Below are positions 18,326 to 31,152 of a stretch of DNA of 37,171 bases, one piece after another (within the stretch, counting starts at the first letter, position 1; each line of letters opens with the position of its first letter). The notes beneath the pieces were generated by a model. It was not told the DNA's origin. It saw only the letters and a list, made by a program, of their open reading frames with translations, and did no database searches. Location of the stretch: assembly GCA_003212335.1 (NCBI GenBank), contig QCQA01000012.1, positions 1 to 37,171 on the forward strand, written 5' to 3'. Source of the stretch: SAR86 cluster bacterium AG-447-A08 (GTDB taxonomy: Bacteria; Pseudomonadota; Gammaproteobacteria; Magnimaribacterales; Magnimaribacteraceae). The translations under genes were made by a program, and so were the position numbers.

Positions 18326-18817
18326 TCAGGATTCTTCAGGTGCTTCGTTCAATTCACCATAGTCTAAAATTGGTGCGGCATCTATTTCTTCAGCTCCTAT
18401 GAATTGAGCCACTCTTTGCAAGCAAGAGACTATCATGCTTTGCTCCCAATCATTTAAATTAGAGAACTGTTCTTTAAATTTATCTTGTAAAACGTCGGGT
18501 GAAGATTCAAGAATTTTAAAACCTTTTTCAGTAATATTTAGATATTGAATTCTTTTATCATTTATACCTCTTTCTCTTGTTATCAAATCATTTGAGAGCA
18601 ATTTATTTATTACAGTAGCGATAGTTGTATGTCTAAGAGTTGTTATATAAGAGATATGACTCGGTGTAGTATGTTTTTTATTTGCGATAATCTGCAGAAC
18701 AATATGTTGTGTTGGTGTGAGTTGGGATTTCTTTGCTAAGGATAGAGAATTAATCTCAGTAGCCCTCATGACTCTTCTGATTGCAATTAAAGCCTCCTCT
18801 AGATGATTATCTTCCAT
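18326..18817 (-). CDS. MarR-family transcriptional regulator
   Basis: A winged-helix dimeric repressor or activator of the MarR type. ATG 18817 gives 163 aa; GGAAG lies 7 nt upstream, so I prefer it over the in-frame ATG at 18844. The wHTH runs from LTPTQHIVLQII through SHISYITTLRHTTIATVINKLLSNDLI, with the wing TRERGINDKRIQYLNITEKG carrying the conserved D-x-R. Helices for dimerisation flank it, and an acidic tail ends the protein. Its start overlaps the end of the BCCT transporter gene by 11 nt, so it is co-translated with it and may sense that transporter's substrate. The ligand is not evident. Confidence 0.9.
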   Translation of the reverse strand: MEDNHLEEALIAIRRVMRATEINSLSLAKKSQLTPTQHIVLQIIANKKHTTPSHISYITTLRHTTIATVINKLLSNDLITRERGINDKRIQYLNITEKGFKILESSPDVLQDKFKEQFSNLNDWEQSMIVSCLQRVAQFIGAEEIDAAPILDYGELNEAPEES

Positions 18818-20390
18818 GTGTATCTTCCATTTTGTGCGGATCATATACTTCTATATATACTCCTCGCAATAGGCTGAACATTGCTGCGATTAAGATAAAA
18901 ATAAAAGGTAAAGCCATTGATATGGCCCCTGATTGAATTGCTGAAAGTGCGTAAGAGCCACCTCCTACAAGCAGAACAACCGCAATTAAGCCTTGAATGA
19001 TTGCCCAGATTACTCTTTGAATTCTAGGTGTATTGTCTTTTCCTCCCGAAGTAATCGTATTGATTACCAGTGACCCAGAATCTGAGGAAGTAACGAAAAA
19101 TAGCACCAACATAAATAAGGCAAACAAACTAGTAAAAGTCGGGAATAAAAGATTATCTAGCATATAAAAAAGTACTAGAGAAATATCAGTCACAGGTTCG
19201 CTTAACTTGCCTATTCCTTCTTGAAATTGAAAAATTGCAGCTTCTCCAAAAGAAGAAAACCATATTAAACAAAATAAAAGTGGTGCAAACATAACGACTG
19301 TTAGAAACTCTCTTATTGTTCTGCCTTTCGAAATACGTGCTATGAACATTCCAACAAAAGGAGACCAAGAAATCCACCAAGCCCAATAGAAAATAGTCCA
19401 ATCGCGATACCATTGTTGATCGTCTGACCTATTCCAATTACTTAGTTCAGTTAAGTCCTGAAAATATGAAACTAAATTTCCTCCATAAGTAGAGATAATT
19501 TTATAAGTTGGACCAGCTATCACCACAAAAGTTAATAAAAGCAGAGCCAATCCAATATTGATATTGCTCAAGACTTTTACGCCTTTGTCTAAACCTCTGA
19601 AGACAGAAAATATAGCTACTGCAGTAATGAAAATAATAACTAAAGATTGACTTAACAAAGTGTTAGGAATTCCAAATAGGTAATACAGACCAGATGATGC
19701 CTGTTGAGCTCCTAGCCCAAGAGAAGTTGCTAAACCAAATAAAGTTGCAAGTACGGCAATTATGTCAATTAAGTCGCCCTGCCACCCCCAAATCTTGTCA
19801 CCCAATAAAGGATAAAATATTGATCGAATAGTCAAAGGCAGTTTCCAGTTATAACTGAAGAATGCCAAGGATAATCCTATGACCGCATAAACAGACCACG
19901 CATTGATTCCCCAATGAAAAATAGTTGCACTAAAGGCTAATCGATAAGCTTCTTCAGATTGAGGTATTACGTTTAAGGGTGTTCCAAAAACCCCTGTGTA
20001 ATATGAAAGAGGTTCTGCAGCACCATAGAAAGTCATGCCTATCCCTACACCTGCAGCAAATAACATGCATACCCATGAAAGAAATCCGAACTCTGGGGAA
20101 GAGTCCTTACCTCCAAGAGTAATCTTTCCAAAAGGAGAAATAATCAAAAAGAAAATAATTAGGGTGAATGCTGACATGCATAAAGTAAATAAAGTATCAA
20201 AACGGGAGACAACAAAATTTCTTGAATCAGATAGCAATTGGTTAGAAGCTTCCGGATAAACGAGTACCAAACAAGAAAAGATTATTGCGAGTCCGGAACT
20301 AGTAAAAAAGACTGAAGAGTTAATATCTAAACCCAGAAATTGAATATTCTTTCTAGGTTTAGATTCAATTGTGCTGTTGAAATTATTCAT
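18807..20390 (-). CDS. BCCT-family transporter (betaine/choline/carnitine type)
   Basis: A secondary transporter for trimethylammonium or related zwitterions (glycine betaine, choline, carnitine or DMSP), in the inner membrane. The protein is about 527 aa with some 12 hydrophobic segments. Numbering from the ATG six bases upstream, the signature DWTIFYWAWW is at 332-341, and GVGIG (116-120) replaces the GMGIG of BetP. The aromatic box that holds the quaternary ammonium in BetP is retained: W162, W167 and Y170, plus W340, W341 and W344. ATG 20390 is preferred because AGGA lies 5 nt ahead; ATG 20396 has no spacing. It begins directly after the sulfotransferase stop. The short C-terminal tail lacks the long regulatory helix of BetP. 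Exact substrate unknown. Confidence 0.93.
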   Translation of the reverse strand: MNNFNSTIESKPRKNIQFLGLDINSSVFFTSSGLAIIFSCLVLVYPEASNQLLSDSRNFVVSRFDTLFTLCMSAFTLIIFFLIISPFGKITLGGKDSSPEFGFLSWVCMLFAAGVGIGMTFYGAAEPLSYYTGVFGTPLNVIPQSEEAYRLAFSATIFHWGINAWSVYAVIGLSLAFFSYNWKLPLTIRSIFYPLLGDKIWGWQGDLIDIIAVLATLFGLATSLGLGAQQASSGLYYLFGIPNTLLSQSLVIIFITAVAIFSVFRGLDKGVKVLSNINIGLALLLLTFVVIAGPTYKIISTYGGNLVSYFQDLTELSNWNRSDDQQWYRDWTIFYWAWWISWSPFVGMFIARISKGRTIREFLTVVMFAPLLFCLIWFSSFGEAAIFQFQEGIGKLSEPVTDISLVLFYMLDNLLFPTFTSLFALFMLVLFFVTSSDSGSLVINTITSGGKDNTPRIQRVIWAIIQGLIAVVLLVGGGSYALSAIQSGAISMALPFIFILIAAMFSLLRGVYIEVYDPHKMEDTHGR

Positions 20391-20397
20391 TAGCATC

Positions 20398-22428
20398 CTA
20401 CTTGTTGATATAAGCTATGTCTTCTGGTTTTATAAGATCTGTATCCAGGGCATTAAGTAGAGGTTTTAAATTTTTAGCATAAGGTTTCCATCTTTCCATG
20501 CCCTCTTTATTTATTGGCTTTCTTACTTGTTCTGAGCTAGCAGTTCTAACAGACCTTTCTGTTTCATGAAATGAGATACAGCTTTCCTCAAAAGGTAGCT
20601 CCAAAAATTCAAGCATTCTTCTAACTTGTCCTTCTAAATCTTCAATGACATCTTCATTATTAACTCTCAGGATCTTATTAGGTAAAACTCGATTCCAGTG
20701 ATCCATTAGTTTTACGTAACTTTTGTAATAGCTTCCTGCCTCAGCTAAACCATAAGAGAACTCTTGCCCTTGGGCAAAAAGTTGCTTGAACATACTAAAA
20801 CAGCAGTCCAAAGGATATCTTCTAGCATCGATGATCTTAGCGTTGGGCATTATTAGATGAATTAAGCCAATATGCCTGAAGTTATTCGGCATCTTATCTG
20901 TAAACATCGGGGCTTCTTTTCTGTGCATTTGAGTATCTTCAATATAGGCCTTACCTAGACTTTCTCTTTGTTCAGGAGTTAATGACTCCATACTTTTAGG
21001 ATAATTTCCTAATTTACCGTAAATGTCATCTCCTCTTAAACTTTGTGCAGTAGAGAGTATATTAGGAAGTTCTAAAGTCCCATCTATCTTAGAATGAGAC
21101 GCTAAAATCTGTTCAATGAGTGTTGAACCTGCTCTTGGTAAACCTAAAATAAATATGGGGTCTTTGGTGTTATAACCTCCGGTGCCTAAATCTCTAAAGA
21201 AAATTTCATCACAAATATCTATTTGAGCTTGCAATTCCTTTTCCATCCTCTCAATGGAATACTGGCTTTGATCATTCTTAATTTTATTTCCTTTTTCTAA
21301 ATGAAAAAATGCCTCGTCATATTCACCTTTTGCTTCACAGCCTTGGGCAAGAGCAAAATGAAAGTACGCTTTATCTCTAAGCGATAAATCAATTCTCTCG
21401 ACTTGTTTTCGCATACTTTCTAATTCATTGTTGGTAAAAGAGTAGGTTTTTAAATTAGCTAATGAAAAGAAAGCCTCTCCATGGTCAGGTTTAATTTTAT
21501 AAGCTGATTGATAACTTTTAATAGCTTCATTCGTCCTACCTAAAGTCTTTTGTGCATGTCCTTTTGAAGTGAGCGTACTGAAGTTATATGGGTTTTTAGC
21601 TAGAATATCATCTAATATAGAAATAGCTTCTTCATGGTCCCCATTTTGCATAATTTCACTGGCCTTTTGTGCTTGATAATTTAGATTTTCAGGATATTTG
21701 TCGCACAATATATTTACTTGCTCCATTGTTTTTGCAAATTTTTGTTTTTTTCTGAGAATAGAAGCGTATTTCATTCTTAGATCACCGTCATCTGGCTGAA
21801 ATTCAACAGCTTTTTCAAGCAGAAACTCAGCATCATCAAAATATCCTAATCGGTTGGCAATTTCTGAAAGTAAAGACATTGCATAAGTATGTGTAGGATT
21901 TTCTTTAAGGAAAGCTCTGCACTTTGCTTCCGCCATGCCCAACCTACCTTCGTTCAAAATTTGATCAATATATAGAAGAACGCTCGGTAATGATTTTAAT
22001 TTATTAATTTGCTCAAAGGCATGTTCTGCTGCTGGTTTATTATTATTTTTTAAGAAGTATTGGTATAGAAAATTCCAACCCGCTATAAGAGCAGGATTAA
22101 GTTCGCAAGCTTGTCTATAATGCACCACAGCTTGTTCTTCATCCCCCATATCTCTATTTAAGTGACCCAATTCTTGATAAGCTCTTCCCATATCTGGGAC
22201 AGTTATCAATAATCTTTCTATGTAATTTTTTGATGCCTCAAATTTCTTCAAGTATCTTGATGAAACTGCAGCAAGATAAAGACTGTCTATATGATCGGGA
22301 TGCTCTTTAAGAATAATCTTTAATAAGGAAAGGGCATGCTCAAAACTACCATTTTTAACTGCATCTGTAGCTTCGCTTAAATCAACTGCAAGTGTAGTTT
22401 CTTCTATATTTAATTTATCCTTTTCCAT
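20398..22428 (-). CDS. TPR-repeat sulfotransferase
   Basis: A two-part protein of about 676 aa. Residues ~15-380 are tetratricopeptide repeats, recognisable by motifs such as GRAYQELGHLNRDMGDEEQA and ALAQGCEAKGEYDEAFFHLE. The C-terminal part is a PAPS-dependent sulfotransferase fold. The 5'-phosphosulfate loop is PIFILGLPRAGSTLIEQIL (about 426-444) and the 3'-phosphate segment is DARRYPLDCCFSMF (about 535-548). It would transfer sulfate to an unknown acceptor. Such fusions are frequent in marine gammaproteobacteria (recalled). The first in-frame start is a TTG at 22434, but ATG 22428 is more likely; no Shine-Dalgarno is visible. Its promoter candidate is at 22447-22475. The BCCT gene follows with no gap. 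Confidence 0.9.
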   Translation of the reverse strand: MEKDKLNIEETTLAVDLSEATDAVKNGSFEHALSLLKIILKEHPDHIDSLYLAAVSSRYLKKFEASKNYIERLLITVPDMGRAYQELGHLNRDMGDEEQAVVHYRQACELNPALIAGWNFLYQYFLKNNNKPAAEHAFEQINKLKSLPSVLLYIDQILNEGRLGMAEAKCRAFLKENPTHTYAMSLLSEIANRLGYFDDAEFLLEKAVEFQPDDGDLRMKYASILRKKQKFAKTMEQVNILCDKYPENLNYQAQKASEIMQNGDHEEAISILDDILAKNPYNFSTLTSKGHAQKTLGRTNEAIKSYQSAYKIKPDHGEAFFSLANLKTYSFTNNELESMRKQVERIDLSLRDKAYFHFALAQGCEAKGEYDEAFFHLEKGNKIKNDQSQYSIERMEKELQAQIDICDEIFFRDLGTGGYNTKDPIFILGLPRAGSTLIEQILASHSKIDGTLELPNILSTAQSLRGDDIYGKLGNYPKSMESLTPEQRESLGKAYIEDTQMHRKEAPMFTDKMPNNFRHIGLIHLIMPNAKIIDARRYPLDCCFSMFKQLFAQGQEFSYGLAEAGSYYKSYVKLMDHWNRVLPNKILRVNNEDVIEDLEGQVRRMLEFLELPFEESCISFHETERSVRTASSEQVRKPINKEGMERWKPYAKNLKPLLNALDTDLIKPEDIAYINK

Positions 22429-22446
22429 GTGCAAATAATTTTAATA

Positions 22447-22521: not shown

Positions 22522-25056
22522 TTAAAACTTTAATTTATATCTGAGTCCAACGGTCAATGGTCTGATAACGGCTATACGTTGTCTATCAAAGACGAATGTA
22601 TTGCTTATTTCAGCTCTCTCGTCAGTAACGTTATCTATATACATTTCTGCTGTCCATTCATCATTAGTCATGCCAGCCCTAATATTGGTTAAATTATAAC
22701 TGTCCTGCTTAGCTCTGTTAGGTTGCATGATGTCTGAATAGCTTTTATCAGACATGTTGAATTGAATTTGCCAGAATCCAGTATTACCGCCTTCCATGGT
22801 CCATTCTTTTCTTCCACTCAAGTTAGCCTGAAATCCAGGCGCAAAAGCTAATTCCTGACCTACAATAATGTCACCGGTTGGAATTAAGCTCTTGGTGATT
22901 TCAGTATCTAGAAGTGAAAATGCACCTGATAGTATTAAGCCGCCATCAGTATAGTAAATAAAGTCACCTTCAACTCCTTTAATTTCTGCATCAGCCGCAT
23001 TATCAGAGAAGAACAAGTTAACAATACTAGGATCAAATATAGTACTTTGAAGTCCACTTACGTCTACCCAGAAGATACTACCATTAAACCTAAGTCGACC
23101 ATCTTGAAGAATATTTTTCCAACCAAATTCGTAATTTGTTATCTCGTCAGAGTCAATAGCTGCTGGAATCGTATATGAACCATCTGAATTAGTCCGACCT
23201 GCAGGTCGATTCAACAAGCCTGGCCTAAAGCCTTCTGACCAAGTTAGGTAATACATAGAATCATCATTCGGCTTCCATGAGTACGTAACTTTTCCAATGA
23301 CTCCGTCTGTTTCAGCTTTATCGGGATATCCGTTGGAATTTCCTGGAGCATATTGAGCTGATAGATTCGATCCATATTTTTGCTGGTCGGTATTTCCAAA
23401 ACCATTCCCAAATGAGGAGTTGGCACTGCCCTCAAAATCAACTTGAATATCATACCAACGTGCTCCAATTGAAAGTTCAGTTGTATCGCTCGTTGCAAAA
23501 CTTATTTCTCCAAATACTCCTCTTTGTTCATCAGTACGCTTTATGTCGTTAAAAAAGATAACAGGTTCAGAAAAAGGACCTGCTGAATACCAACCAGGAC
23601 TTGCATTATTGATTGAACCTGTAACTGAAGTATCAGTTAAAGCATAGTTTGCAGCATAAGTGATGTCATTATCCACTGAGGTTGGATACGTAAATAAGTT
23701 TAACTCTGTAAGCTCGGTATCACTCATAAATACACCTGCAGTAAGTGAAGTAGTATCATTTAAATCTGCATTTAATCTGAATTCATGAGATGTAACCTCT
23801 AACTCTGTAGTAGAGTTAACTAATAGGTTAGGAGCACCACAAGTTCCAGTAGGTACGTTGCCTGGTGCAAATTTAGTATACGTTACGTAGTAATCACAAA
23901 TGTAGTAAGGAAGATACTGACCAACAAACAAGTAATCAGTATAGTCAACCATCTGCTCTGTTGTTCTGTCTGTATATGCTCCTGCATAAACTACTTCAAG
24001 ATCTCCTATTGAACCTTCAAGAGTCAAGCTCATGTTGTCGTATTCATCATCAATCTTGTCTTCTGTATATCTTTGGATTTCTAAATCACCTAAATTTGGA
24101 TCAACAAAAAACACACCATCAGCCTCAATAGTTTGCTGCGCTACACTAGCTAGCGCATCCCAACTTTCATTAATTTCATGAGCAACACTTGCTCTGAAGC
24201 CTTGATAAGTTAACTCATTAGCATCGTCTTTAATGATCGCACCAGCTGGTTTTAAAGTAGCTCCGGAAAGATCAGCTCCAGCTTGGAATCCACCTCTCGA
24301 TGAATTTACGGCAAGACCGTTCTGTCTGATTGTGCCTGCTGGCCTGAAACGAGCAGAACCACTTACGTCAAGAAGTCCGGCCACTTGATCAATGTACCCA
24401 CCTTTTGTGTCTCTATAAGCAACAACTCTAGCTGCAGTTGAATCTCCTAGAGGAAAATTTCCTACAAGTTCTACTTTTGCTCCCGTATCTCCTTCAGGCA
24501 TCACCCTAGATTCGACTTCTGCTTTGCCGGATGATTCGCCTATGACCGGTTTATTAGTAATCATTCTGACCACACCTGCTTGTGAGCTAGCGCCAAAAAG
24601 GGTTCCTTGAGGGCCTGCAAGAACCTCAATTCGTTGCATATCAGCAGCGTAAACGTCTAAGTTTCTTCCAGGTTGTGCTAAAGGCTGCTCATCTAAATAA
24701 AATGAAACATTTGGAGCTAAACCGGCTACACCGGCAGTGGTAAGATTAGGTGTAGTAGAAGCAAGACCTCTAATATAAATAGTACTCGTTCCAGGTCCAT
24801 TACCGCCAGAAGTTACACTAGGGAGTTGTAATAAGTAATCTTCAAATACATTTACTCCTTTCTCGTCCAGATCACTTTCTCTTAGTGCGGAAACTGATAA
24901 AGGAACGTCTTGCAGACTTTCTGCTTTCTTTCTTGCTGTTACTACAACTTCTTCAACTGTATCTTGTGAAAGAATATATCCACTGAATGCAGAAGCATTA
25001 AGCAGAAAGAAAGTTGAAAGGTAGAAAGATATCTTTTCTCGAATTTTTCCAAACAT
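22522..25056 (-). CDS. TonB-dependent outer-membrane receptor
   Basis: An outer-membrane active transporter of 844 aa, powered by TonB-ExbBD. A signal peptide covers about residues 1-30. A TonB box follows (EEVVVTAR, about 35-42), then the plug domain with RIEVLAGPQGTLFG and the SQAGVVRMITNKP segment. The remainder is the 22-strand barrel, ending with the typical RPLTVGLRYKLKF and a terminal Phe. ATG 25056 has AGGGGAG about 10 nt upstream. The subfamily is the broad type found in multiple copies in marine bacteria and sphingomonads, with substrates not predictable from sequence. It follows the catabolic gene cluster on the same strand after a 156-nt gap with two inverted repeats, so uptake of that pathway's substrate is a reasonable inference. 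Confidence 0.95.
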   Translation of the reverse strand: MFGKIREKISFYLSTFFLLNASAFSGYILSQDTVEEVVVTARKKAESLQDVPLSVSALRESDLDEKGVNVFEDYLLQLPSVTSGGNGPGTSTIYIRGLASTTPNLTTAGVAGLAPNVSFYLDEQPLAQPGRNLDVYAADMQRIEVLAGPQGTLFGASSQAGVVRMITNKPVIGESSGKAEVESRVMPEGDTGAKVELVGNFPLGDSTAARVVAYRDTKGGYIDQVAGLLDVSGSARFRPAGTIRQNGLAVNSSRGGFQAGADLSGATLKPAGAIIKDDANELTYQGFRASVAHEINESWDALASVAQQTIEADGVFFVDPNLGDLEIQRYTEDKIDDEYDNMSLTLEGSIGDLEVVYAGAYTDRTTEQMVDYTDYLFVGQYLPYYICDYYVTYTKFAPGNVPTGTCGAPNLLVNSTTELEVTSHEFRLNADLNDTTSLTAGVFMSDTELTELNLFTYPTSVDNDITYAANYALTDTSVTGSINNASPGWYSAGPFSEPVIFFNDIKRTDEQRGVFGEISFATSDTTELSIGARWYDIQVDFEGSANSSFGNGFGNTDQQKYGSNLSAQYAPGNSNGYPDKAETDGVIGKVTYSWKPNDDSMYYLTWSEGFRPGLLNRPAGRTNSDGSYTIPAAIDSDEITNYEFGWKNILQDGRLRFNGSIFWVDVSGLQSTIFDPSIVNLFFSDNAADAEIKGVEGDFIYYTDGGLILSGAFSLLDTEITKSLIPTGDIIVGQELAFAPGFQANLSGRKEWTMEGGNTGFWQIQFNMSDKSYSDIMQPNRAKQDSYNLTNIRAGMTNDEWTAEMYIDNVTDERAEISNTFVFDRQRIAVIRPLTVGLRYKLKF

Positions 25057-25212: not shown

Positions 25213-25347
25213 TTAATAAAAAACGAGAACCAATAAAGGAATTATTAAAAGTCCACTGAAGATTGTTACAAACTTGTTAGGCTTTAGAACAACTAAAAGA
25301 CATAAAAGGAATATAAAAATTGCAGCTAAGAATGAAGTTAATTCCAT
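25213..25347 (-). CDS. Putative 44-aa two-helix membrane protein
   Basis: A short reading frame starts 5 nt after the stop of the VOC gene. The predicted peptide runs from MELTSFLAAI to LLVLVFY. It has two hydrophobic stretches (about 3-21 and 27-44) separated by a polar KPNK turn, a hairpin-type inner-membrane protein. Shine-Dalgarno support is weak (AAGTGA about 5 nt upstream). Evidence that it is real: tight placement in the operon, a clean two-helix pattern, and Phe/Leu/Ile composition with a charged turn. I do not recognise the family. Confidence 0.5.
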   Translation of the reverse strand: MELTSFLAAIFIFLLCLLVVLKPNKFVTIFSGLLIIPLLVLVFY

Positions 25348-25352
25348 AGAAA

Positions 25353-26270
25353 TCACTTTTGAATAAGTCTTGTAAGAATATTACCTTTAAGTCCTGATTG
25401 TATAGTTGCCATCTTATCAGTGTCAGATACTATTAAAATTTGGGTACCTTTAGCATTCAGCATATCAATCTCGTTCTGAATATCTGAGACTTCAAATATG
25501 ATCTCAGCTACACCCTCTCCACGTTGCTTTATTGAGTCTGAATATATACTTACCTCTTCTGGCTTCATGAGTTCAAAAAGGATTCCACCTAGAGAGTATT
25601 CTATGGAGTCGGTTTTCCATTCTTTTCTATAAAATCTATCTTTTGATTTTGTAAAGCCCATACTTGAATAATATCCGGATGCGGATTCAAGGTCATCAAC
25701 ACATAAACCTAGTCCCATAAATCTCCATTGGTTAACTAAAGGGTGAGATTCATTATTATTGCGCCAAGATTTTTCCCAATCATCTGCGGGAGGTCTCAAC
25801 GAAATCATCAAGTCTCCATGCCGTCTCGTATCAATATAATTTTCAATCGTTTTACCGTTTGTTGTTACATTAAAAACCAGATCACAGCCGCGATCTAAAA
25901 AATACTGGGTGTCATTTTCAATATCGTTAGTATTGAAAGCTATGTGGTTAATACCATTGCCCTTTTTTTCTAAATAACGGCTTATAAACATTCCGGGACC
26001 GGGTTTCATAGGGTAAATTTCGAGCTGACAGTTTCCAATCTGAGATTGGCCATCTCTAAAATGATGAGCTCCACCAGTTTGATATTTATGAGAAACAGGA
26101 TCTCCATCGAGCTCTCTAAAGAAAGTTATTTCTCCTTCTCCTGCGATAAAGGGTTGTAATGGTTGAGGTCCTACACTTACACCTAAGCCTATTGATTGAT
26201 AATATTCTAAAACCTCATCACGATCGGTAACCATCATGCCCAGGTGATTAAACGACCAATTAAATTTCAT
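25353..26270 (-). CDS. Two-domain VOC (glyoxalase/dioxygenase fold) protein
   Basis: A 305-aa protein with two vicinal-oxygen-chelate modules. Module 1 (about 5-160) starts FNHLGMMVTD with His9, then CQLEIYPM (Q82/E84) and INHIAF (His109) in metal-ligand positions. The last ligand position, usually Glu, reads LMISL, so metal binding may be altered. Module 2 (about 180-300) starts FMGLGLCVDD, has FELMKP, and lacks the histidines. Relatives include extradiol dioxygenases and methylmalonyl-CoA epimerase-like enzymes, so the reaction could be ring cleavage, isomerisation or epimerisation. Its ATG overlaps the SDR stop (ATGA), showing coupling. It is probably a pathway enzyme of the cluster, reaction unknown. 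Confidence 0.85.
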   Translation of the reverse strand: MKFNWSFNHLGMMVTDRDEVLEYYQSIGLGVSVGPQPLQPFIAGEGEITFFRELDGDPVSHKYQTGGAHHFRDGQSQIGNCQLEIYPMKPGPGMFISRYLEKKGNGINHIAFNTNDIENDTQYFLDRGCDLVFNVTTNGKTIENYIDTRRHGDLMISLRPPADDWEKSWRNNNESHPLVNQWRFMGLGLCVDDLESASGYYSSMGFTKSKDRFYRKEWKTDSIEYSLGGILFELMKPEEVSIYSDSIKQRGEGVAEIIFEVSDIQNEIDMLNAKGTQILIVSDTDKMATIQSGLKGNILTRLIQK

Positions 26271-27097
26271 GCCATGTAACCGCCATCTACGTTCAAAATT
26301 GTACCGTTTATATAGCTTGATGCATCAGAAGCAAGAAAAACTGCCGCATTAGCCATTTCATTGAAAGTAGCAACTCTGCCTAAGGGTATATTTTCTGGAC
26401 CAGTTGACCAAGCTTCAAATTTTTCTTGATCAGATACTTCTTTTTTTTCTTCCTCAATATTTGTTCTTTTCTTTTTGATATTTTCTTGTCCTGGAAATTC
26501 TTCCCACTCTACTAAGGAAGGGGCTATAGCATTCACTCTTATGTTGTGAGGTCCTAAATATCTAGCATACTGTCTGGTCATCATAGCGATACCAGATTTA
26601 ACAATTGCATAGTTACCCATAGCCTTGTCAGCATGAGCTTTTAGGCCCCCTCGCGATGTTAAATTAATAATGCTGCCACTGCCTTGCTTCTTCATTATTG
26701 GAGATACTTCTTGAATTGTGAGCCAGTAACCCTTCAAGTTAACATTACTGAGTTGTTCCCAACTTTCTTCATCTAAATCAACAACAGATTTCATGTGATA
26801 CATCACTGCCACATTCATCAAGATATCAATACCACCAAATTCAAGCATCACCTTATCAACCATTTTTTTTACTTCCTCTTGAGAAGATATGTCGGTTTTG
26901 AGAAAAATAGACTTTCTTCCCATTGCCTCAATTTCTTCACTTACTGCCTTAAGTTGACCAGATTCAATATTAATATCAGTAACAGCGACATCAGCTCCAG
27001 CTTCAGCAAGACCTAAAGCAAAACCCTTACCCATATTTCTTCTTGCACCGACAACCAAAGCTTTCTTACCGCTTAATGAAAATTCTGAAAGTGACAT
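26267..27097 (-). CDS. SDR-family dehydrogenase/reductase with variant cofactor motif
   Basis: A short-chain dehydrogenase of 276 aa that probably oxidises or reduces a pathway alcohol/ketone with NAD(P). The Rossmann start is LVVGARRNMGKG: the usual TGxxxGxG has Val16 for Thr and Asn21 for the middle Gly. An Asp at the end of the second strand (VTDIN, D41) favours NAD. Catalytic Ser148 (NLTS), Tyr163 and Lys167 (NYAIVK) are present, and NVA replaces the NAG motif. A charged ~30-residue insertion (about 205-232) in the substrate loop is longer than usual. The C-terminal end INGTILNVDGGYMA is typical. It follows the Ldi-like gene after 55 nt and overlaps the VOC gene. Confidence 0.92.
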   Translation of the reverse strand: MSLSEFSLSGKKALVVGARRNMGKGFALGLAEAGADVAVTDINIESGQLKAVSEEIEAMGRKSIFLKTDISSQEEVKKMVDKVMLEFGGIDILMNVAVMYHMKSVVDLDEESWEQLSNVNLKGYWLTIQEVSPIMKKQGSGSIINLTSRGGLKAHADKAMGNYAIVKSGIAMMTRQYARYLGPHNIRVNAIAPSLVEWEEFPGQENIKKKRTNIEEEKKEVSDQEKFEAWSTGPENIPLGRVATFNEMANAAVFLASDASSYINGTILNVDGGYMA

Positions 27098-27152
27098 AAA
27101 ACCAATAATTAAAATTAATAAATATTTACATTAGGTTCTTTTAAGAAAAGGA

Positions 27153-28814
27153 TCAACAACAACTGCACTTATTAAGACTGGAGGGTAGTACTAATCGCGA
27201 AGTTGAACCCGAAGAATGTTTTGACCTAGAAATGTCTCCGCCTTTTGTTTCTTTAAGTTTTTTATTGAAAACCTGTTCTTCTTGCTCGGATAAATAGTAC
27301 CCGGTATCAATTTCGAAACTGTGTTTTCTTACCTGAGTATTTATGGAAATTCTCGAATTATCTAAGATTTTATATTCATTAAATTTTTTTCCATCACATA
27401 AGACTGTTATCTCCTTGGCATCGGGCAGATTAAATACTTCAATGTTTGTCTTTCTATTTGTCTTTGTTTTATCACCATCAGAAATACTAAAGTGTAATTT
27501 TCCCTTTCGGTCATCATGAAATGCTTTCTCAATAGATACTGAAGGAAAATCAACGCCTTCAATACTGGGAGAATAGAACTTAGTTAGATTAGGTTTATTA
27601 AAGAGACTCTCCCAAGCTTCAGGTTCGCAAACTTCAGCGCACATTGCTAAAGCAGAAAGCTGTCCTCTGGGCCATTTTTCACCAAGATTAAACCAAAATC
27701 CAAATTGACTGTCGTTGACGCCAAAGAATTGAGGTTCAAAGTTTTCTTCGGCATATTTTCTTAACCTTTCGTGGGTTATCTGATCATCAAATTCCTTAGA
27801 CATAGTTAATCCAAGAGCAAACATTCTTGGGTCTGGCATAAATTCGTTTGTAATTGGAATAGAAGGATTATCCCATCCCAAGAAGTTGATAGCTCCTCGA
27901 TAGAGAAGTTCTGCAAATTGCGGGTCTTGGGGCTTTGCGTAAAATGACACTGCAAGTCCATGAGTCGGTACTGTTCTGTGATGGTGATCATTGATCTCAT
28001 CAAAATACATGGTTACCCATTCTAAAGATCCATTCTTGTTGAACCCATAGTATTTATCTTTAGTAAAAGATAACCAATTTGAATAAGAACTATGAAAATT
28101 ATTATCAAAAATTTTATCGTACATCATCAAACCCAGTCCTGCGGCTGATAAACAAAAAGGCCATGCTTTGGTATTTTCACAATGTGGGCCCATTGGGGTC
28201 TTTGCCCACTGTTGATGTAAGTGGTCAGCTAGTTGGTGCTGAGTCCATTCAAATCTGGAATTGTAAGCTCCTGCTACACTAAAAGGTGAAGACCACTTAT
28301 CGTAACCACTGACATATGTATGCATTGACTGAGTCAAATTCAGCCAGCCCTTAAAAAATAAATTCCCATCGGCACCTATTGGATCAGCGTGAAATCCCCA
28401 TGGGGCGACACCATTTGCTGTCCAGCCAGGTGCATCATATTCTCCCCAAAATTCTTCGGGTATAAGCGTACCTCTCCATACCTCTGGATAATTTTTTCTA
28501 TCAGGATCATGACCAAATTGTGTTAGCCAGTCTACGGCCGCCCAATAAGTGATAGAGCGTTCAGCTATTTCATCTAATATCTCAGAGTAGATTTCCCTCC
28601 AGGCTGGAGTTCTATCAGCCATTAAACCAATAGCATATGTTGATTCTTGAAGATCAAAACGAGGGAAAGCGCACATCGGTGCTGTTGAAATTTGGTCCCA
28701 CCATTCATTTGGAGACCCATCTTCGGACCAATCATCTGGTGTAGTAGCCTTTTGATAAAGAAAATTTAACCATCCTTGAGCTCTAACATTTAGTTCTGGA
28801 TGATAGGTTGGCAT
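27153..28814 (-). CDS. Putative linalool dehydratase/isomerase (Ldi)-family enzyme
   Basis: A 553-aa protein, rich in Trp and aromatic residues, without a signal peptide or membrane segment. I read it as Ldi-like, an (alpha,alpha)6-barrel fold. In Castellaniella defragrans Ldi the active site uses D39, Y45, H129, C171 and C180 (recalled). Here D54-x5-Y60 and C212-x8-C221 keep both spacings, and the segments RFDLQESTYA, HCENTKAWPFCLSAAGLGL and GADGNLFFKGWLNL sit in the expected order. The position I would align to H129 is Trp157, so the reaction may differ. Residues ~430-500 may form a beta-rich extension, and the chain ends KCSCC. ATG 28814 lies 8 nt after the GST stop. A different alpha/alpha-barrel enzyme is the main alternative. 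Confidence 0.6.
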   Translation of the reverse strand: MPTYHPELNVRAQGWLNFLYQKATTPDDWSEDGSPNEWWDQISTAPMCAFPRFDLQESTYAIGLMADRTPAWREIYSEILDEIAERSITYWAAVDWLTQFGHDPDRKNYPEVWRGTLIPEEFWGEYDAPGWTANGVAPWGFHADPIGADGNLFFKGWLNLTQSMHTYVSGYDKWSSPFSVAGAYNSRFEWTQHQLADHLHQQWAKTPMGPHCENTKAWPFCLSAAGLGLMMYDKIFDNNFHSSYSNWLSFTKDKYYGFNKNGSLEWVTMYFDEINDHHHRTVPTHGLAVSFYAKPQDPQFAELLYRGAINFLGWDNPSIPITNEFMPDPRMFALGLTMSKEFDDQITHERLRKYAEENFEPQFFGVNDSQFGFWFNLGEKWPRGQLSALAMCAEVCEPEAWESLFNKPNLTKFYSPSIEGVDFPSVSIEKAFHDDRKGKLHFSISDGDKTKTNRKTNIEVFNLPDAKEITVLCDGKKFNEYKILDNSRISINTQVRKHSFEIDTGYYLSEQEEQVFNKKLKETKGGDISRSKHSSGSTSRLVLPSSLNKCSCC

Positions 28815-28822
28815 ATCGATAA

Positions 28823-29440
28823 TTAAACTTTAGAGCTTGGTCTAGATAGGATTTGTTTATGCCATCTGGATAGATTTTCTAACCCTTCATCTGGTTTTAG
28901 ATCAACCATGCTAGAAGCAAAATCTATTGCAGACAAAAGGGTGATATCGGCAACGGTGAACTTATCTCCCGCTACGTATTCAGAGCTAGAAAATTCTGAA
29001 TCCAATCTTGCATAGTAGGCTACAACATTCTTATCACTCGCTTTCTTAGCATCTGGAATTTGTTTAAATAAACCCATTGAACCAACAATTGGACCATTGA
29101 CCCAGGAAGTACCAATTTGTGTCCATAGCTCCAACTCAATGTGTCTATTTCTGCTCTCTATAAAAGATATCTCAAAAGCATCCTCACCAAATAAATTGGG
29201 GTCAGGTACTAAATTCTCCAAGTATCTACAAATAGGTATTGACTCAGAAATGCATCTTCCGTCATCTAACTCTAAGACAGGAATTTTGCCGCTTGGATTT
29301 TTTTTCAGGAACTCTGGAGATTTGTGCTCTCTCTTTGTCATATCACAGTTAATTAACTCTAAAGTGATATTCTTTTCTTCTGCAAAAATCTTTACTCTTC
29401 TAGGATTAGGAGCACCAGGAAAGTCGTAGAGTTTCATCAT
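28823..29440 (-). CDS. Glutathione S-transferase family protein
   Basis: A cytosolic GST-fold protein of 205 aa. The N-terminal thioredoxin-like domain starts KLYDFPGAPNPRRV, with the cis-Pro at KIPVLEL (P54) and the glutathione-binding SESIP (65-69). The all-helical C-terminal domain includes the N-capping motif FTVADITLLSAID. The catalytic residue is uncertain because Ser/Cys is absent at the usual site in GAPNP. Its start (ATGATG) overlaps the acyl-CoA synthetase stop. In such clusters GSTs carry out ring opening, ether cleavage, isomerisation or detoxification of reactive intermediates, and which applies here cannot be told. Confidence 0.9.
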   Translation of the reverse strand: MMKLYDFPGAPNPRRVKIFAEEKNITLELINCDMTKREHKSPEFLKKNPSGKIPVLELDDGRCISESIPICRYLENLVPDPNLFGEDAFEISFIESRNRHIELELWTQIGTSWVNGPIVGSMGLFKQIPDAKKASDKNVVAYYARLDSEFSSSEYVAGDKFTVADITLLSAIDFASSMVDLKPDEGLENLSRWHKQILSRPSSKV

Positions 29441-30981
29441 GAGATAGCTGGGGCATCTGAACCTAATAAATCTTCTCTTAAATTTCTTTTCAGGACTTTA
29501 CCGGTAGCATTACGAGGTAAAGCATCTATAAATTTAACGGAACTAGGAACCTTAAATTTAGCAAGGTTGTTTATGCAGTGTTGAATGATGTCTTTTTCTT
29601 CAATCTTCTCATCGGCCTTTAGACTAATAAAGGCCACTCCAGTTTCTCCCCACCTCTCATCAGGAACACCAAGAATTGCAGCTTCGGCGATCTGAGGTAG
29701 CTGATAGAGAACATTTTCTACTTCAGCGGGATATACATTCTCTCCACCCGATATGTACATATCTTTCCAGCGGTCGACTATATACACAAAACCTTCGTCA
29801 TCAAATCTGGCAGCATCCCCTGTTTTAAGCCAACCATCATCAAAAGAATTTGCAGTAGCTTCAGGGTTATTCCAGTAACCAGGTGTGATGTTAGGCCCTT
29901 TAATATATAACTCCCCTACTTCTCCCCAAGGTAGCTCCTTACCATCGTCATCCACTACTTTAACTTCTGTATGCAGAAGAGGCTTGCCAGCTGATCCTAA
30001 TTTACGTTCTGCGTCTTCTGCAGGAAGCCCTATACCTCCAGGACTAGTCTCTGTCATACCCCAACCCTGAATCATTGCAACTCCTCTGTCAGACCAAGTC
30101 TTAAGAATGGCTTCTGCACAAGGAGCTCCTCCAATGCCTGCTATTCTTAGATTAGATAAATCAGTTTTATCGAAATCAGGGTGATTCATCATAAATTGAT
30201 AAGGGGCAGGAACTGCAAAGAAGTGAGAAACTTTATATTGGGAGTCTCCCAAAATCGATAAAGCCAAACCAGGATCAAAATCTCTGATTAAAATTAATTC
30301 ACCTCCGGCATGCAAAACAGGATTAGCATAACAATTCATGCCTCCAGTATGAAAAAGAGGAAGCACGACTAACTGAACGGTATCAGTAGCAACAAATGCT
30401 GGAGAGGCAAGATTAATGACATTATAGAGCTGCATCTGATGATTGATCATTGCACCCTTTGGATGACCAGTTGTTCCGGAGGTATACATGATCATAATTA
30501 GATCATCTTGATTTATATCCGGTTTAACAAAATCTGAACTACTATCTTGTAGCGTAGCTTCGTATTGACTGACAGGATCGCCTTTATCGATTTCTAACGA
30601 ATCAGAAATATTACAATCCTTGATTAAGTCATTTGATATTTCAGAAAATGATTGGTCATAAATTATTACCTTTGGAGTACTGTCTTTGAGAATATATTCA
30701 AGTTCAGGTTTGGTCAGTCGCCAATTGAGAGGGAGTTCTATTGCTCCGATCTTTGCACAGGCAAACTCAAGTTCGAAGAACTCTGCACAATTTTGGGATA
30801 ATATTGCTACCCGATCGCCCTTCTCAAGGCCAACTTTTTGTAACCAGTTAGCAAGCAGACATGCCCTATCATCAAGCTCTTTGTATGTTAAAGATTGATT
30901 AGCACTTAAATCTCTAATTGCAATCTTGTTGGGCCTCACATAGGAATGATAAGCAGACCAATCGTAATGTTTAACTGTCAT
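29437..30981 (-). CDS. Acyl-CoA synthetase (AMP-forming)
   Basis: An ATP-dependent CoA ligase of 514 aa that activates a carboxylic acid through an acyl-AMP. The P-loop YTSGTTGHPKGAM is at 166-178, followed by GWGMTETSPGG. GDAARFDDEGFVYIVDRWKDM and ISGGENVYPAEVE carry the A8/A9-type motifs, and the C-terminal catalytic lysine is in NATGKVLKRNLRE (about K494). It most resembles fatty/aromatic acid ligases of catabolic clusters; substrate unknown. ATG 30981 has AAGGGG about 6 nt upstream. It starts 12 nt after the 52-aa membrane ORF and overlaps the GST gene, making it the first large gene of the operon. Confidence 0.93.
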   Translation of the reverse strand: MTVKHYDWSAYHSYVRPNKIAIRDLSANQSLTYKELDDRACLLANWLQKVGLEKGDRVAILSQNCAEFFELEFACAKIGAIELPLNWRLTKPELEYILKDSTPKVIIYDQSFSEISNDLIKDCNISDSLEIDKGDPVSQYEATLQDSSSDFVKPDINQDDLIMIMYTSGTTGHPKGAMINHQMQLYNVINLASPAFVATDTVQLVVLPLFHTGGMNCYANPVLHAGGELILIRDFDPGLALSILGDSQYKVSHFFAVPAPYQFMMNHPDFDKTDLSNLRIAGIGGAPCAEAILKTWSDRGVAMIQGWGMTETSPGGIGLPAEDAERKLGSAGKPLLHTEVKVVDDDGKELPWGEVGELYIKGPNITPGYWNNPEATANSFDDGWLKTGDAARFDDEGFVYIVDRWKDMYISGGENVYPAEVENVLYQLPQIAEAAILGVPDERWGETGVAFISLKADEKIEEKDIIQHCINNLAKFKVPSSVKFIDALPRNATGKVLKRNLREDLLGSDAPAIS

Positions 30982-30993
30982 AGGACACCCCTT

Positions 30994-31152
30994 TTAAAAG
31001 AAAACGATCATGAATAAATAAAAAACTATTACTGCACCCCATATATTCAACAAAAATCCAATTCTTCTTCCAACTTGTTCTCCTTTGGAGTACTGCCAAA
31101 GAAAGAACAATAAGCTTATGAAAATAAGGGAGATAATAATTCCAATATGCAT
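30994..31152 (-). CDS. Putative 52-aa two-helix membrane protein
   Basis: A short reading frame 12 nt upstream of the acyl-CoA synthetase gene. The predicted peptide runs from MHIGIIISLI to YLFMIVFF, with two hydrophobic helices (about 3-18 and 32-52) joined by a basic loop YSKGEQVGRR. An in-frame stop upstream fixes the possible N-terminus within a few codons, and no clear Shine-Dalgarno precedes the ATG. Support comes from operon position, helix-loop-helix pattern and resemblance in architecture, not sequence, to the 44-aa ORF at the other end of the cluster. Family not recognised. Confidence 0.52.
   Translation of the reverse strand: MHIGIIISLIFISLLFFLWQYSKGEQVGRRIGFLLNIWGAVIVFYLFMIVFF

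Follow-up and report, generated by a model that had tools for sequence, protein, structure and literature searches.

A divergent Ldi-fold protein with a conserved cysteine tail in a conserved but modular SAR86 locus

What do seven tightly packed genes beside rnr contribute to a SAR86 bacterium, and do they act as one? The window, by which we mean the whole stretch of 37,171 nucleotides analysed here (contig QCQA01000012.1 of SAR86 cluster bacterium AG-447-A08, assembly GCA_003212335.1), carries them on the minus strand at 25213-31152. At their centre lies the gene of a 553-aa protein (27153-28814, minus strand) that distantly resembles Ldi (linalool dehydratase-isomerase), an enzyme active on linalool, geraniol and myrcene that takes away or shifts the hydroxyl group of such plant-scent alcohols. 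The divergent Ldi-fold subfamily to which this protein belongs, with its unusual conserved tail, is real, and so is the conserved but modular locus that holds it. Quite possibly, though we say so tentatively, the cluster is a modular SAR86 catabolic locus for a hydrophobic isoprenoid-type alcohol or acid, built around the Ldi-fold core.

The carbon sources of SAR86 have been deduced from genomes. The lineage is reported to form as much as 6% of the microbial community at the ocean surface (PMC11582366), and a conserved, exchangeable Ldi-type locus offers a concrete, testable substrate class for it. A full-text literature search found no publication on an Ldi-type or monoterpene locus in SAR86; the co-mention of SAR86 and linalool concerned, in the text returned, Prokka annotations in another clade.

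How firmly can the central protein be assigned? The preliminary description had called it Ldi-type, and both the fold and the catalytic cysteine pair bear this out. Pfam model PF18566 (Ldi) matches residues 143-310 with 47.7 bits (cut-off 26.1), and a sequence search reaches Ldi marginally (E 0.005); a profile comparison with five relatives, among which one is clearly homologous to Ldi (E 4e-69 to 5i3t), gives 99.7% probability. An AF2 model from 16 diverse homologues (pLDDT 76, pTM 0.82) was used instead of one from 11 SAR86-only sequences (pLDDT 51). It predicts an (alpha/alpha)6 barrel at about 1-410, a beta domain at about 417-503, a low-confidence linker and a C-terminal CSCC. The 27 best PDB matches of the model in Foldseek are all Ldi (E 2e-9 to 4e-8, TM by target 0.65-0.72); the non-Ldi matches among the 50 listed have a TM by target of 0.17-0.53 and E above 1e-5. 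Judged by this model, the 553-aa protein has the Ldi fold. A GH127-type glycosidase was also considered, and rejected for its poor TM.

Is the chemistry conserved along with the fold? C212 and C221 align with C170 and C179 of Ldi (C171/C180 in other numbering), which are its catalytic cysteines (PMC6600392), and C212, E213 and C221 are invariant in 16/16 aligned homologues, down to 31% identity. The likeness to Ldi (or LinD) of Castellaniella defragrans (5hlr, 5g1u, 5i3t) comprises the fold, this pair with its adjacent Glu and a DPI..N..KG motif, at 15-16% identity over the Foldseek alignment. Ldi (EC 4.2.1.127 / 5.4.4.4), however, is about 370 residues long, has a signal peptide, is periplasmic and forms a homopentamer with its site at the subunit interface, whereas the window protein shows no hydrophobic N-terminal stretch suggesting a signal peptide (by eye), adds the beta domain and a CxCC tail, and has glutathione transferase (GST) and CoA-ligase genes as neighbours. 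Other differences weigh against our reading. Ldi H129, which presumably has a role there, is W157 in the window protein and W, F or Y across the clade. The cysteines of the Ldi cap disulphide (C48-C101) are absent: there is no Cys between 49 and 211, and the protein's own C48 lies out of register with that of Ldi in a weakly aligned N-terminal part. Finally, no Asp aligns with Ldi D39, which we take to work there as a pair with Y45, in a low-confidence region of the profile comparison. Because of these three points, the Ldi reaction may not be conserved.

Could the same fold then serve an epimerase, lyase or cyclase without dehydration, given the lost H129 and cap? The aromatic residue at the H129 position throughout the clade would fit, as would later Foldseek matches to other (alpha/alpha)6 enzymes, for example, GlcNAc 2-epimerase and GH127, and the neighbours in the SAR86 genera g2, g3 and g5, where the gene adjoins that of an amidase, of a cyclase-family protein or of a sulfatase. 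Yet the cysteine pair and neighbouring Glu are unchanged in all 16 homologues, and the non-Ldi matches are the worse ones among those listed, so that we consider such a change of chemistry unlikely. Another long Ldi relative, the linalool isomerase Lis of Thauera linaloolentis, is described as having a catalytic part predicted to be cytoplasmic and as being assayed with reducing agents (PMC4791888). Compared by that description, Lis differs in its four N-terminal transmembrane helices; none is evident in the window protein.

The tail is a C-x-C-C end that follows a variable linker. In 11 SAR86 proteins its three cysteines are the only invariant positions of the final 49, and the 18 distinct full-length SAR86 sequences end in CxCC 17 times and in RGCC once. 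Elsewhere, eight full-length relatives (the count leaves out the incomplete L060 and L063; here and below, G, L, g and f numbers denote genomes, loci, genera and families) divide into three with a terminal CxCC, one whose CACC stands 15 residues short of the C-terminus, and four with none. Among the open reading frames (ORFs) of the loci compared, 49 of 791 end in CxCC, all of them the Ldi-like gene or a piece of it, with the same gene repeated many times.

Do the seven genes belong together? On layout, the preliminary description was accurate: all seven minus-strand genes are there, with overlaps or gaps of 5-55 nt and a TonB receptor 156 nt on, and the 4-nt overlaps and small gaps confirm its compactness. 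The block runs, always on the minus strand, from a 44-aa membrane-like protein of no family (25213-25347 with an ATG start, to 25356 with a GTG start) through a two-domain VOC protein (25353-26270), a short-chain dehydrogenase/reductase (SDR; 26267-27097), the Ldi-like enzyme, the GST (28823-29440) and an AMP-forming acyl-CoA synthetase (ACS; 29437-30981) to a 52-aa membrane-like protein, likewise without family (30994-31152). Between successive genes lie 5 nt, a 4-nt overlap, 55 nt, 8 nt, a 4-nt overlap and 12 nt. Pfam supports all five enzyme assignments as well as that of the receptor (22522-25056, minus strand), and the block is placed between this receptor and rnr.

Among 61 genomes searched (the window's own and 60 relatives), 21 hold the Ldi-like protein, all within the window's family; three of the matches, in G013, G022 and G026, are fragments 46-109 residues long. 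The order's other families, represented by 26 genomes, gave no match. Rnr was found in 55/61 genomes at E 1e-50, and the rnr locus was read in 22 genomes and could be scored in 21 including the window; in G007 it stops at a contig edge. The full ACS-GST-Ldi-SDR-VOC set stands at nine of the 21 scored loci and, outside this count, also in G014 and G034, whose rnr is broken. Five loci have ACS and SDR-VOC without GST-Ldi (in G031 four other genes intervene), two have ACS-GST-Ldi without SDR-VOC, two ACS-GST alone, one SDR-VOC alone, and two no cluster enzyme. SDR and VOC agree in presence or absence at 21/21 scored loci, GST and Ldi at 19/21. Mapped on a tree of the 22 Rnr proteins, the patterns at the locus take no fewer than 3 to 5 changes for each gene; since presence and absence must have changed so repeatedly, GST-Ldi and SDR-VOC are separate modules that turn over separately. 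The co-occurrence expected by the preliminary description is thus found in relatives as modules, and not as a seven-gene set. This natural presence and absence between related genomes is a ready comparison for metatranscriptomes.

Single loci show variants of their own. The genes between SDR and ACS in G031 (L051:1862-5580) are sulfotransferase-, aminotransferase- and GNAT-like by eye, with a luciferase-like monooxygenase by Pfam. Genus g5 has, after ACS-GST at rnr, a protein of NIPSNAP type in place of the Ldi-like gene (L049:8123-8473 and L050:12274-12624), a label taken from a weak Pfam match of the L049 copy. L040 (G034:C14) holds the locus twice, as an inverted copy on the contig, which is probably an assembly artefact.

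For GST and VOC, absence at the rnr locus was followed up elsewhere in the genome, in a sample of 35 genomes, most of them incomplete (the window, 18 of the same genus and 16 of the same family). A GST orthologue, at a threshold of at least 70% identity, occurs in 20 of 21 genomes with Ldi versus 4 of 14 without (Fisher p = 5e-5; two counted GSTs, in G007 and G022, are partial), and within the genus in 12/12 versus 1/7 (p = 3e-4). VOC is present in 13/21 versus 5/14 genomes and has no association with Ldi (p = 0.18). All three values ignore kinship. G025, G030 and G031 carry Ldi and GST on different contigs, which argues that their association is more than adjacency. A point against tying the GST to the Ldi-like enzyme is its occurrence without Ldi in four genomes, because of which we ascribe to it a role of its own.

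These patterns also bear on another possibility: that GST and the Ldi-like enzyme clear a toxic hydrophobic electrophile or alcohol, with ligase and SDR serving other routes. GST-Ldi is nearly one inherited unit, jointly missing from 6/18 other genomes of the genus, and Ldi has been suggested as a detoxifier of monoterpene alcohols (PMC6013536). However, the GST gene overlaps that of ACS by 4 nt and the pair stays together in genus g5, which argues for carbon use; detoxification thus seems to us rather improbable.

What of the receptor and the small genes? The 52-aa gene still sits beside rnr in G019, whose locus holds no cluster enzyme, and the 44-aa gene and the TonB receptor are kept in G005, G009, G011 and G015, all without GST-Ldi. 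The receptor is absent beside Ldi in G003, G006 and G021, and is found at the locus in only part of the genus. Neither the receptor nor the two small genes track the Ldi gene, and since its presence is independent of Ldi, the receptor can hardly be taken as a sign that the Ldi substrate is imported there. The proposal of the preliminary description that the seven genes are one set and pathway does not hold at these loci. A single linear seven-gene pathway fed by the adjacent receptor would account for the overlapping genes and for the nine complete enzyme sets; with the modules missing separately and Ldi and VOC unassociated, we think it very unlikely. The proposed order of alcohol, SDR and ligase finds no support either. 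In G006, the start of a 77-aa ORF (L037:8460-8693) resembles the 44-aa protein and its end the C-terminus of a BCCT transporter, as if the stretch from receptor to BCCT had been deleted.

How might such modules move? Over 25834-29718, a 3.9-kb tract to which we assign no strand, the window and G008 share 96.9% nucleotide identity, from part of VOC through SDR, Ldi and GST to the end of ACS. Outside it they share 74.1% in Rnr, 73.5% in the TonB receptor (over 2097 alignable bases), 75.3% in the TPR-sulfotransferase gene and 78.5% in the 44-aa gene; the whole ACS stands at 80.9%. Because the tract is so much closer than the 73-79% of nearby genes, we read this as a recombination tract, in which the enzyme cassette was probably swapped recently between two species by homologous exchange. 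High identity with G008 returns at window 18326-20396 (MarR 95.8%, BCCT transporter 90.6%), next to the TPR-sulfotransferase gene at about 75%.

Can relatives point to a substrate? They are sparse: the window is the only match of a SAR86-only profile in 398 phylum genomes, while PF18566 matches 6/369 class and 3/398 phylum genomes, the window included in both. Family f94 has a long Ldi relative in 6/36 genomes. Viral contigs searched with the Ldi alignment gave 23 pattern matches and no relative. Plasmid searches with tblastn found a 39% relative of the Ldi-like protein in two Streptomyces records, with catabolic neighbours that give little indication of substrate. Within SAR86, genera g2, g3 and g5 have the gene away from rnr, in one setting next to an amidase while a CYP153-like P450 and a ferredoxin lie 1.5-1.8 kb off on the opposite strand, in others beside a cyclase-family protein or overlapping a sulfatase; in G030 (L034:1544-5018) the ORF as called shares 29 nt with the end of the sulfatase gene. 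A Streptomyces plasmid (L064:13336-13953) and two gammaproteobacteria (L075:4756-5367 and L074:8536-9123) encode, immediately upstream of their long Ldi-like gene, a protein of some 200 aa that matches no Pfam family; the L064 and L075 copies are 37% identical, and that of L074 is alike by eye. The 205-aa Streptomyces neighbour was tried as a GST and rejected, as it has no similarity.

The nearest relative found outside SAR86, at 50-52% identity, is in G105, where Ldi, a P450 (21 nt on), an NAD-epimerase/3b-HSD-like protein, a Zn-ADH and a TonB receptor follow on one strand, with DUF1330 about 1 kb beyond the receptor. G105 is alone in its order, so this operon has no kin for comparison. Its P450 has P450terp as best PDB match (E 5e-128, 431 bits), an enzyme reported to hydroxylate alpha-terpineol (PMC7794910). 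In family f94, an FMO/Baeyer-Villiger-type monooxygenase (BVMO) lies 1.1-3.1 kb from Ldi in 3/3 loci of the CxCC clade, the one checked (L075) being most similar to OTEMO, an enzyme of camphor breakdown; in one locus a limonene-epoxide-hydrolase (LEH) homologue lies about 0.9 kb from the Ldi-like gene. Non-self P450 or BVMO matches occur in all four loci (G105 and three of f94), against 1/40 control regions of the same four genomes (P450 and LEH; BVMO in none), which span 602 kb, 32 of them at least 12 kb long.

Several points count against a terpenoid reading of these neighbours. The G105 P450 scores well against 3tkt (421 bits) and p450tol (347 bits) too, and hence need not be a terpineol enzyme; the window cluster has no P450, and the best match to that of G105 in the window's genome reaches 33%. 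The families to query were picked once the loci had been seen, a single family supplies three of the four loci, and genes in the GC-rich outside loci were called by codon-position composition, for which reasons the enrichment is a lead and not proof. Relatives of P450terp (CYP108A1) and OTEMO are neighbours of long Ldi-like genes outside SAR86, but these enzymes are absent from the window cluster and no whole terpineol or camphor pathway was found. Pfam and NCBIfam scans of ten window proteins gave no named enzyme of a known monoterpenoid route above cut-off, and the window GST scores 16.8 bits against the isoprene-epoxide GST IsoI, far under its cut-off of 300. Where the preliminary description suggested an acyclic terpenoid, the terpenoid flavour is retained by the P450terp-like, OTEMO-like and limonene-epoxide-hydrolase-like neighbours outside SAR86; 'acyclic' is not, since these enzyme types are those of cyclic monoterpenoids.

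A serious rival substrate is a sterol side chain or other large isoprenoid, on which the Ldi-fold enzyme might act, for example, by shifting a tertiary C25 hydroxyl, in place of monoterpenoids. An Ldi-like enzyme has been proposed for 25-OH to 26-OH steroid isomerisation (PMC3691188) and, to the detriment of our own reading, degradation of the side chains of steroids has been reported for SAR86 genomes (PMC11582366). That report describes GST- and TonB-rich catabolism of hydrophobic compounds, lipids and steroids included, in the same lineage, although its main text, as far as available, has no words beginning with 'linalool', 'P450' or 'terpen'. One protein of the G105 operon also matches 3Beta_HSD, and the operon's P450 resembles CYP125/142/124 too, at lower score: about 192-205 bits with natural CYP125/124/142, 277 with an ancestral CYP125, versus 431 with P450terp. 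As scans of the ten window proteins found no steroid-specific family at cut-off either, a sterol substrate appears unlikely to us, if by no means negligible.

How would an isoprenoid locus of this kind work? Isoprenoid alcohols are the candidate substrate class on two grounds, the Ldi ancestry and the neighbours outside SAR86. For the reaction and its direction, the cytosolic place and the roles of GST and tail we infer the following. An aerobic, cytosolic Ldi-fold enzyme, with C212/C221 most likely as acid/base pair, would dehydrate or isomerise a tertiary or allylic alcohol group, and ACS, whose closest solved chains are fatty-acyl/feruloyl-CoA synthetases and FadD13, would activate the carboxylate form for beta-oxidation. 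Ldi requires reduced C170/C179 and a mild reducing agent (PMC6600392, PMC6013536), and since SAR86 belongs to the surface ocean, this pair would need to be held in the reduced state in an aerobic cytosolic Ldi; a flexible CxCC arm and a partner GST could see to that. The GST, whose closest solved chain is yeast Gtt2, might perform thiol chemistry on the substrate or the upkeep of reduced enzyme cysteines, those of the CxCC tail included. The branch with the CxCC tail would bring aerobic, cytosolic members into an enzyme family that industry already uses.

SDR-VOC is a second module, inherited separately, in which a dehydrogenase and an epimerase-like step at the CoA level could act on a branched CoA intermediate later in the route or on another substrate. 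The first VOC domain resembles methylmalonyl-CoA epimerase, at a score below the family cut-off, and its H9, E84 and H109 are invariant in 6/6 aligned sequences. An extradiol dioxygenase was considered and rejected: the first domain keeps H, E and H but has Ser at what we take to be the fourth ligand site, and the second is without ligand residues. VOC had no match in 368 other class genomes at E 1e-15, and therefore provides no outside context; tblastn against plasmids matched no record with VOC and one distant record with SDR.

A bolder extension, which we consider improbable, would make the long Ldi-like enzymes a separate aerobic branch of terpenoid-alcohol (de)hydratases whose flexible CxCC arm extends to the oxygen-sensitive cysteines of the active site or bears a thiol-bound terpenyl intermediate, with glutathione recharge via the GST and SAR86, among the most abundant ocean lineages, consuming algal terpenoids.

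The wider setting, in a SAR86 genome (G000; 1.54-Mb assembly, 88% complete, one PF18566 match), runs from rnr to birA/tufA. Promoter and terminator scans gave no more than in shuffles, and a repeat scan nothing of note. By tblastn, homologues at the same position in relatives are 53-99% identical for the five enzymes, 44-98% for the 52-aa ORF and 47-75% for the 44-aa ORF; because of these homologues, we take both small ORFs as genes. The TonB receptor is adjoined, here and likewise in several relatives, by a TPR protein with a C-terminal sulfotransferase domain (window 20398-22434).

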